Below, one piece after another: positions 60,575 to 62,077 of a stretch of 64,000 nt of DNA; position 1 is the stretch's first letter, and every line of letters begins with the position of its first letter. The DNA comes from Leptobrachium leishanense (lineage: Eukaryota > Chordata > Amphibia > Anura > Megophryidae). The DNA lies in contig CM019065.1 of the NCBI GenBank assembly GCA_009667805.1, forward strand, positions 157,843,322 through 157,907,321, read 5' to 3'. Under the pieces are notes generated by a model. The model made no database searches. It had not been told where the DNA came from and saw only the letters and a list, made by a program, of their open reading frames with translations. Made by a program: the position numbers and the translations under genes.

Positions 60575-62077
60575 GCCTGACTGTGAAGAGGATCCAAATC
60601 ATGAATGCCTCCAAGTCATGGAAGAAGTATTCCGTAGCAGACCAGATCTGAAAGACGTACCCCTAGACAAATACGATCTACAGTTATTCACTGATGGTAG
60701 CAGTTACATGGATGATGGGAAGAAAGTCTCCGGCTATGCAGTTGTCTCAGCAGAAGAACTTATTGAAGCAAATCCTCTACCAGGCCATACGTCAGCACAA
60801 CTGGCTGAAATAACAGCCCTGACAAGGGCCCTGGAAATCTCTGAAGGCAAAATAGTGAACATCTATACTGACTCCAAATATGCCTTTATGACTGTCCATG
60901 CACATGGTGCACTCTATAAAGAAAGAGGCCTGCTTACTTCCTCAGGACAACAAATCAAGTATGCAGCTGAAATTGCAGCCCTTCTAGAAGCTGTATGGAA
61001 ACCAAGTGCTGTCAGTATTATGCACTGTCGTGGCCACCAGAAAGGTCATGATGAAATCCCAAAAGGCAACAGGTGCGCTGACCAAGCCGCAAAAGCTGCT
61101 GCAAAACCATTAATACCACCTGATCAAGCCAAGGTCCTGTTCTGCAAGCAAGAGGCTCAATTTCCCATGCCTATTTACGAATTCTACATGAATTGGAGAA
61201 AATTTAAACCAAAAGGCGAATTTATTGAAACTATTTTGCACAAGTGGCACAACAATTATGAACTATTAGAAGGAAACCATGATTATATCCAGTGGCTTTT
61301 CCCAACACAGTCCCAAGGCCGAAATTTCTACTCCACTCCTCTGAACCCCCAAGAAACACGTATCATGATAGATACCTCAGAAGTTCAGCAAAGACTCCGC
61401 AGAGCATACAAAATGATGCTGAAATTCTTCGGCGTAAAAATAGTGGGGGAGGATGGAGAAGATACAAAAGTGACCGAAGTTGAACGGGCAGAAAATTTCG
61501 CCTCACGTTTTGACAATCTAACAGCCAACCCTCATAATAATTTGAGGATCACACGAATACTGCTAAGTTTGGGAGAATTGGGAGCAGAAGAATATCAAGC
61601 CCCGTTGGTGAGGTTCTTTCTCAAAGAGACCCTTATCAAAAACAAACTGCCAAGAATGAAGAAAAGTGTGATGAACTTTTTTGTACCAGCAGTGAGAGAT
61701 ACGCAGAAGAGACAAGATCTGCTGTTCTTTGCCTGGCGATACTATTTTCCAAAAGAGGAATTTATCTGGGGAAACCAGGAAGAATTGGCAAGATACAAAG
61801 CAACACCGGTGGTGGCTGCACTCCTACCGGCGCCACTGAGTGAATGGACACCTGTGTATTCAGAAAAAGAGAAGAAATGGCTATCAGAAGAACAAGGTGG
61901 ATATGGAGAAGACGGATGGTTTCAGTTGAAGAATGGACAAATAGTCCTGCCAGCGACATTGGCACCTGAGATCGTGAGAGCGCTTCACGCAAGTACCCAT
62001 GGAGGAAGAGAGATGATGGAACAACAGTTGGAACCACATTTCTATGTGCCAAGGATGTCAGTAGTCTGCAAAGCAAT
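60575..62077 (+). CDS. Retroviral Pol 3' segment: RNase H, OGFR-like domain, integrase start
   Basis: One frame is open across this segment (and on into the next LTR to 62273). Counting from the ATG at 60618: RNase H at residues 20-170 with its four acidic residues intact (LFTDGSS D26, E64, IYTDSKYA D85, CADQAAK D155). Residues about 183-392 (61164-61793) match the conserved domain of opioid growth factor receptor, with IYEFYMNWRKF, NHDYIQWLFP, HNNLRITRILLSLGELG, YQAPLVRFFLKETL and AVRDTQKRQDLLFFAWRYYF. Residues about 408-486 are the integrase N-terminal zinc domain (LPATLAPEIVRALHASTHGG, His457 and His461, Cys484), cut at 62078. The host domain has no introns and sits in frame between two viral domains. 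Its role is unknown. Confidence 0.85.
61164..61793 (+). other. OGFR-like domain captured inside retroviral Pol
   Basis: About 210 residues resemble the OGFr conserved region of vertebrate OGFR/OGFRL1, a host protein that binds met-enkephalin and acts at the nuclear envelope. The recognition is from memory of the family signature and not from a search. No stop or frame break interrupts it, while other parts of the same provirus are broken. Confidence 0.85.

Follow-up and report, generated by a model that had tools for sequence, protein, structure and literature searches.

A host OGFr_N domain inside a retroviral Pol

Along a 64,000-nt stretch of Leptobrachium leishanense DNA, hereafter the window, we find a provirus whose Pol carries the OGFr_N domain of a cellular protein, the opioid growth factor receptor (OGFR), in frame between RNase H and integrase (IN). 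The explanation that we favor, and that we consider probable, is a single capture of the 5′ part of a spliced OGFR mRNA into pol, after which the segment would have been trimmed, would have diversified and would have been inserted recently. More tentatively, the domain, borne by the virion, might imitate host OGFR or compete with it.

The frame that holds the domain (60561-62273, 570 codons) is uninterrupted and encodes, in order, RNase H, a 24-residue linker, OGFr_N, the viral junction between reverse transcriptase and integrase (RT/IN junction) and the N-terminal region of IN. OGFr_N is matched in Pfam at frame residues 206-408 and profile positions 9-206 of 208 (E 9.3e-72, 241 bits versus a cut-off of 22), while Integrase_H2C2 is matched at residues 464-507 with a score below its cut-off (E 7.9e-5, 23.1 bits versus 25.5). 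A first-pass annotation of the window, made from the letters alone, had proposed that an OGFR domain is fused in frame inside Pol, preceded by RNase H and followed by the integrase zinc domain, and had named a search against Pfam OGFr_N as a check. The Pfam order RNase_H, OGFr_N, Integrase_H2C2 and the significant, 241-bit match agree with this; the motifs it quoted are present, and the extent it gave (61164..61793) encloses the OGFr_N match at 61176-61784.

An AlphaFold model of the OGFr_N domain has a mean predicted local distance difference test score of 92.1 and is helical with one short strand pair, and no solved structure related to OGFr_N by sequence was found (best E 0.099). The captured part falls short of a complete receptor, as similarity to the host protein ends near host residue 325, just past OGFr_N, and the viral junction follows. 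The OGFr_N domain of the window is 54% identical to those of Leptobrachium host-like proteins.

The point of insertion can be read from relatives that lack the domain. The genome was searched with a Pol from Pelobates (47 of 66,532 candidates scored), and six loci were read. An OGFr match is absent from two of the six (L079 and L080), and the other four hold OGFr or fragments of it. In L079, RNase H ends in AAR and the frame continues directly into PVVAARIPAPLTEW and integrase; L080 has a frame shift at the empty site. In the window, PVVAALLPAPLSEW stands immediately past the captured part, and its comparison with PVVAARIPAPLTEW of L079 places the insertion after RNase H ends and before the RT/IN junction, with the junction retained. 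Because this conserved junction lies downstream of OGFr, the mature product is likely to be an RT-OGFr fusion or a free OGFr domain rather than an integrase fusion.

A large and recently active provirus family

The same domain order recurs in L. leishanense proteins and in genome loci, so the case that the first-pass annotation had set against its own reading, a domain confined to a single copy, does not hold. All 45 stretches examined (44 loci and the window) match both OGFr and the IN N-domain, and 41 of them match RNase H; four loci that had been retrieved twice (L002, L004, L007 and L008) were removed before counting. A genome profile search with PF04664 gave at least 150 matches (150 of 5,871 candidates scored), which is a lower bound on copy number. 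These lie on all 13 large contigs, and 133 of the 150 are free of stops. Open frames of at least 1,000 aa hold 27 of the 150, the longest being 1,569 aa, and nine are in frames of exactly 1,440 aa, which we take to be about the length expected of a murine leukemia virus-like pol with an added OGFr domain.

In a protein search with the frame (best 120 of 379 matches), all 35 rows from L. leishanense have OGFr_N, and 23 of these have a retroviral Pfam domain too; the 74 retroviral rows from other species all lack OGFr_N. The query contained OGFr_N, and toad Pols without this domain would therefore rank lower. The counts given here out of 150 and 120 were tallied by eye from tables. Two of the 40 open OGFr domains read from the genome are identical, residue by residue, to stretches of L. 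leishanense proteins (P0034 and P0004). Outside L. leishanense, a combination of OGFr_N with a retroviral Pfam domain was not found among the matches listed in two further searches (best 120 of 788 and best 120 of 5,546).

Full pairs of long terminal repeats (LTRs) of ~690 bp were recovered for 8 of 10 copies, with Kimura two-parameter (K2P) distances of 0, 0, 0.0015, 0.0029, 0.0059, 0.0104, 0.0134 and 0.0240 (gaps uncounted). The other two copies have partial pairs, truncated at the edge of the sequence taken (K2P 0.031 and 0.042). A 4-bp target duplication is clear in five of the eight full pairs and absent from the output in three. The OGFr-bearing family is large and recently active, and it is also old.

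We provisionally take the virus to belong to class I (gamma/epsilon-like). Its class I features are a Gag_p30 capsid (PF02093) and a Pol 62-68% identical to a Pelobates Pol; a proline-like primer binding site (PBS) and a 4-bp target duplication are further marks of this class. Both copies inspected for it (L050 and L054) contain an env-like frame 596 aa long, which includes an RPKR site and a stretch resembling a membrane anchor; in five others the frame is broken or shortened. In the two copies, the frame lacks the gamma-type transmembrane motifs (CX6CC and the immunosuppressive-domain motif), and a Pfam search with it gave no match; the virus may therefore carry an unusual Env. A paper about retroviral invasion still in progress lists L. 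leishanense, in a figure legend, among threatened hosts (PMC10435555). It makes no mention of OGFR ("opioid", 0 occurrences), and we do not equate its elements with the OGFr-bearing family.

Donor and route of capture

In a tree of 42 OGFr_N domains, all 25 proviral rows form one clade (100/98), beside this toad's own OGFR-like proteins, in answer to the tree that the first-pass annotation had suggested. The sister of the proviral clade is a pair of Leptobrachium host-like proteins (P0125 and P0129; 100/96), followed by Pelobates OGFR (91/71), and an earlier 50-row tree is compatible with this topology. The RNase H tree likewise places 16 of 16 OGFr-bearing rows in one clade (97/97), with support of 91/87 for a second set of 16 in a tree to which two empty-site relatives were added. 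As each tree gives a single clade, a second, independent capture is unnecessary. The simplest reading of these topologies would be one capture in the Leptobrachium lineage after its split from Pelobates; the donor could also have been a paralogue since lost in Pelobates. As a separate observation, OGFR-like proteins of two poison frogs and three fishes (P0035, P0121, P0122, P0123 and P0124) carry two OGFr_N domains in tandem, one of them partial in P0035.

The structure of old copies bears on the captured molecule. A host-like gene on contig C12 encodes residues 1-31, 32-62 and 62-114 in separate exons, ~8.2 kb and 0.6 kb apart. All five old, damaged proviral copies (L072, L074, L076, L077 and L078) lack exon 3 and have the exon 1 and exon 2 parts contiguous, with all or some of OGFr_N after them. 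Matches to pol lie upstream of the captured part in L074, L076, L077 and L078, and matches to integrase lie downstream in L072, L074, L076 and L077. Predicted proteins without exon 3 exist in L. leishanense itself (P0196 and P0197), and of the two OGFR isoforms predicted for Pelobates, one is without the stretch homologous to exon 3. In L074, L077 and L078, similarity to the host reaches past the ATG into the 5′ leader, by 76 to 107 bases; in L072 and L076 it does not. The host leader is open in the frame of the ATG across the 50 codons read. From the fused exons 1 and 2, the missing exon 3 and the host-like leader of these old copies, it follows that the captured RNA was spliced, skipped exon 3 and started in the 5′ leader.

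The linker of present copies contains a motif, V-L-x-C, that seems to resemble the translated donor leader (TVLPCL). These comparisons support an original capture larger than the form seen in the window, comprising leader, exons 1 and 2 and OGFr_N, with the short form a product of later trimming. In subfamily B (L081, L083, L084, P0019 and P0020), OGFr_N is preceded by a long linker in which parts of the donor N-terminus seem to persist. The first-pass annotation had proposed that an ancestor of this provirus captured an intronless OGFR domain and kept it in frame. Domain matches, trees, the empty site, old intermediates and the selection described below all support this; what changes is the scale, as the original segment was bigger than the domain and the arrangement belongs to a whole family rather than to one odd copy.

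Selection on the captured domain

The ratio of nonsynonymous to synonymous change (dN/dS) was estimated by the Nei-Gojobori method, with medians taken over pairs with dS of 0.2-1.2. Copies with a stop, a frameshift or less than 90% of the domain were removed, which kept 40 of 45 for OGFr, 23 of 45 for RNase H and 32 of 45 for the IN N-domain; some of the RNase H losses are due to the edges of the sequence pieces taken. The OGFr domain is under purifying selection, with a median dN/dS of 0.116 (285 of 780 pairs among 40 copies; range 0.052-0.275), in a comparison among proviral copies of the kind that the first-pass annotation had proposed. The medians for RNase H and the IN N-domain are 0.035 (125 of 253 pairs) and 0.087 (194 of 496 pairs). 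Compared with the 39 other open OGFr domains, that of the window gives dN/dS values of 0.07-0.36, mostly 0.08-0.17, and the older lineages (six pairs of L011, L012, L014 and L015) give 0.11-0.26. Most of this divergence probably accrued during viral replication, because the measured LTR pairs differ by a few percent at most.

The window and subfamily B are 69-71% identical in RNase H, 52-55% in OGFr and 74% in the IN N-region, and thus the captured domain evolves faster than the enzymes yet stays whole. Among 65 sites invariant in 25 host proteins, the window retains 57, including the run HNNLRITR, and 18 proviral rows (the window included) retain 957 of 1,132 host-invariant cells. The N-side linker, by comparison, ranges from 17 to 79% identity among proviral pairs while the OGFr domain is kept.

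Proposed mechanism and alternatives

Taken together, these results suggest the following course. A class I-like retrovirus of the Leptobrachium lineage would have taken up the 5′ leader, exon 1, exon 2 and OGFr_N of a transcript that skipped exon 3, between RNase H and the RT/IN junction. Its descendants would have lost most of the leader and the N-terminus, kept the folded OGFr_N, split into several lineages and inserted recently. By analogy with dUTPase, the OGFr domain would be made as part of Gag-Pol and packaged in the virion, where the viral protease could leave an RT-OGFr fusion or, if the linker is also cut, a free OGFr protein. In a newly infected cell, the domain might then mimic or compete with host OGFR through a partner-binding surface formed by the conserved OGFr_N residues.

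That an intact host domain is kept in Pol under selection suggests that the virus uses it during infection. Host OGFR is described as restraining proliferation and as occurring in nucleus and cytoplasm (PMC8363427, PMC11749475), and a trout study counts ogfr among the interferon-stimulated genes (PMC6009034). A narrow literature search found no report of OGFR as a core interferon-stimulated gene of vertebrates; a wider one gave 11 papers, PMC6009034 and PMC8363427 among them. Drawing on this biology, we tentatively suggest that in the newly infected cell the domain imitates host OGFR or competes with it; a virus profiting from dividing or less defended cells could exploit it as a competitor. 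We are somewhat more doubtful of the specific form in which the Pol-embedded domain would mimic an interferon-inducible growth inhibitor, blocking or imitating the host protein in the first hours of infection.

Several observations weigh against this account. The C-terminal part of host OGFR, reported to be seemingly crucial for nuclear localisation (PMC11749475), is absent from the captured segment. The functional step would lean on OGFR biology of other species. In the RNase H tree, the empty-site relatives fall outside the OGFr-bearing clade, and its nearest neighbors are either these relatives or two snake viruses (split 82/75). The host exons of the OGFr_N part had no match in L075 and were not located, and intron loss is therefore demonstrated for the first exons only. 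Constraint on OGFr is weaker than on the enzyme, as its dN/dS is about three times that of RNase H; the sample itself favors intact copies, because the 44 of 150 matches read are mostly top-ranked and only open domains (40 of 45) were used, and in 8 of the 39 comparisons with the window dS is saturated and gives no ratio. Lastly, 8 of the 65 host-invariant sites are altered in the window, and G106 is altered in all 18 proviral rows scored.

Of the other readings, the one that fares best holds that the domain, placed on RT or in the preintegration complex, aids nuclear entry or integration through ties to nuclear transport or chromatin partners of OGFR. Effects on nuclear import, integration targeting or a host opioid-receptor pathway had been put forward as possibilities by the first-pass annotation. 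Such a role would suit a domain that adjoins both RT and IN and whose host counterpart is found in nucleus and cytoplasm (PMC11749475). We regard it as unlikely, however, as the C-terminal repeats that seem crucial for nuclear localisation are missing from the captured part, and the kept RT/IN junction speaks against a permanent fusion with IN.

Less likely again is a structural spacer or folding aid, free of OGFR-like activity, on which RT or IN came to depend. In bovine immunodeficiency virus (BIV), a dUTPase-related segment is required without enzyme activity (PMC4261571), and the wide variation of the linker beside a kept domain would fit this idea; retention of 57 of 65 host-invariant positions, including HNNLRITR, does not, and the empty-site relatives manage without the domain. 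A neutral passenger, captured recently and carried along unselected, is very improbable: captured host segments can indeed hitch-hike, but a dN/dS of ~0.12 at dS 0.2-1.2, low values in the older lineages too, and domains that stay open between lineages saturated in dS contradict it.

A transfer in the reverse direction, with the host OGFR-like gene derived from the virus, could draw on the sister relationship of the host-like and viral domains in the tree, but we give it almost no credence: OGFR entries range from fish to mammals, introns lie between host exons 1-3, and the old proviral copies have exons 1 and 2 fused, three of the five with the host 5′ leader. Finally, the UniProt rows are, judging from their names, automatic predictions, yet an artefact of gene prediction or assembly, or one local insertion into a single provirus, is ruled out for practical purposes: the DNA of the window has a single frame without a break, OGFr_N is matched on each of the 13 large contigs, and the loci read show the same domain order.

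Relation to known systems

Endogenous retroviruses (ERVs) that capture host mRNA under purifying selection are already known from crocodilians (PMC4299795), and lentiviruses provide known cases of an additional domain placed between RNase H and IN. The closest parallel in position is the dUTPase of non-primate lentiviruses, likewise an extra Pol domain between RNase H and IN and made in Gag-Pol (PMC4531489); the BIV segment at the same place, needed without enzyme activity, is a second (PMC4261571). The toad element shares this location and differs in the rest: no dUTPase family is among the Pfam matches of the frame in its OGFr_N stretch, the toad virus is class I-like, and one can see its donor transcript, the isoform and the empty site. 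We know of no enzyme activity assigned to OGFr_N.

In origin, the nearest parallels are CrocERV29 and CrocERV31, whose lineages hold host mRNA of KIT-ligand and nectin3 under purifying selection; the KIT-ligand sequence lies between pol and env and nectin3 replaces env, whereas the toad OGFr lies in frame inside Pol (PMC4299795). The marks of an mRNA-derived capture are present here as well, with spliced, intronless exons 1-2 in all five old copies and an empty site in two of the six loci read. Host growth-control genes are also carried by Rous sarcoma virus (Src) and walleye epidermal hyperplasia virus (cyclin D homologues), according to the same source (PMC4299795). Src and cyclin D are additional, separate genes, whereas the toad family, which has gag, pol and an env-like frame, carries within Pol a domain from a protein that restrains growth. 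Host OGFR and OGFRL1 share the OGFr_N domain (PF04664) with the virus; the viral domain differs in lacking the C-terminal part, in lacking the acidic N-terminus in young lineages and in its viral context.

A host regulatory domain between RNase H and IN was not found among the papers listed in searches of open-licence literature (20 of 292 and 12 of 16,027 in two of them), which is weak evidence of absence. It is rare for one genome to show, for a retroviral capture of a host gene, the donor, the isoform, the empty site, intermediates and also recent insertions; as all of these are visible here, the steps by which a new Pol domain arose can be put in order, the 5′ end of a transcript being captured and then trimmed. 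OGFr_N occurs widely in vertebrates and little is understood of its biochemical role; the virus offers an independent test bed for it, having preserved the fold and most of the invariant residues under selection while discarding the rest of the receptor. If our account is true, a retrovirus still invading an amphibian genome delivers a stolen host domain together with its polymerase.

The provirus of the window and its later damage

The features of the provirus and of the elements that interrupt it are collected in Table 1. The first-pass annotation described the rest of the provirus as shifted and deleted. Frame shifts in gag-pol do exist, but much of the damage is later insertion, because LINE-like (long interspersed nuclear element-like), inverted-arm and Ty3-like elements broke this copy.

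Table 1. Features of the provirus and of later insertions in the window
Feature	Position	Strand	Remarks
5′ LTR (TGAAGG...TTACA)	50255..50922	+	91% identity over 682 columns to the LTR of another copy
Primer binding site, proline-tRNA-like, TGGGGGCTCGTGAGCCGGGAT	50927..50947	+	follows the LTR
gag start (MGNGSSKPKK...)	53572..54160	+	cut at 54160 by a later element
Later insertion with poly-A tail, non-viral	54161..56187	+	17-bp duplication, 54144-54160 and 56171-56187
gag capsid frame	56476..57078	+	Gag_p30 (PF02093), E 3e-39
Protease and reverse transcriptase frame	57015..58130	+	RVP and RVT_1 matches
RT connection and RNase H-like region, in the next frame, out of register with the preceding one	58013..58791	+	RT_RNaseH_2 match
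Later insertion with 559-bp inverted arms, non-viral	58792..60560	+	14-bp duplication CCTGCTACACTACT at 58778-58791 and 60561-60574
RNase H domain	60678..61103	+	PF00075, frame residues 40-181, E 1.3e-25
N-side linker, 24 residues, motif V-L-x-C (KVLFC)	61104..61175	+	
Captured OGFr_N domain of host OGFR	61176..61784	+	PF04664
Kept viral RT/IN junction PVVAALLPAPLSEW	61806..61847	+	matches PVVAARIPAPLTEW of empty-site relative L079
Integrase N-terminal extension and start of zinc domain	61848..62078	+	truncated by the Ty3-like element
Later Ty3-like LTR element that breaks integrase, non-viral	62079..64000	+	LTR from ~62079; gag frame from 63294

The PBS is presumably that of a proline tRNA, and TGGGGGCTC is found at the same place in all three of the other copies read, in which the gag start MGNGSSKPKK also recurs (3/3). 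The insertion with a poly-A tail is one that we assume to be LINE-like, its open reading frames (ORFs) recalling a non-LTR element. The viral part of the Pol frame would stop at about 62078, where the sequence and a gag match point to the Ty3-like element.

Three minor observations concern the elements themselves. The inverted arms of the second insertion are 99% complementary, and a short ORF within it recalls Penelope-like elements. A 32-bp tandem repeat (repeat family D1) occupies 62437-63076, between the Ty3-like LTR and its gag frame. A second, distant retroelement lies at 19333-21869, with 25-34% matches to retroviral Pol.
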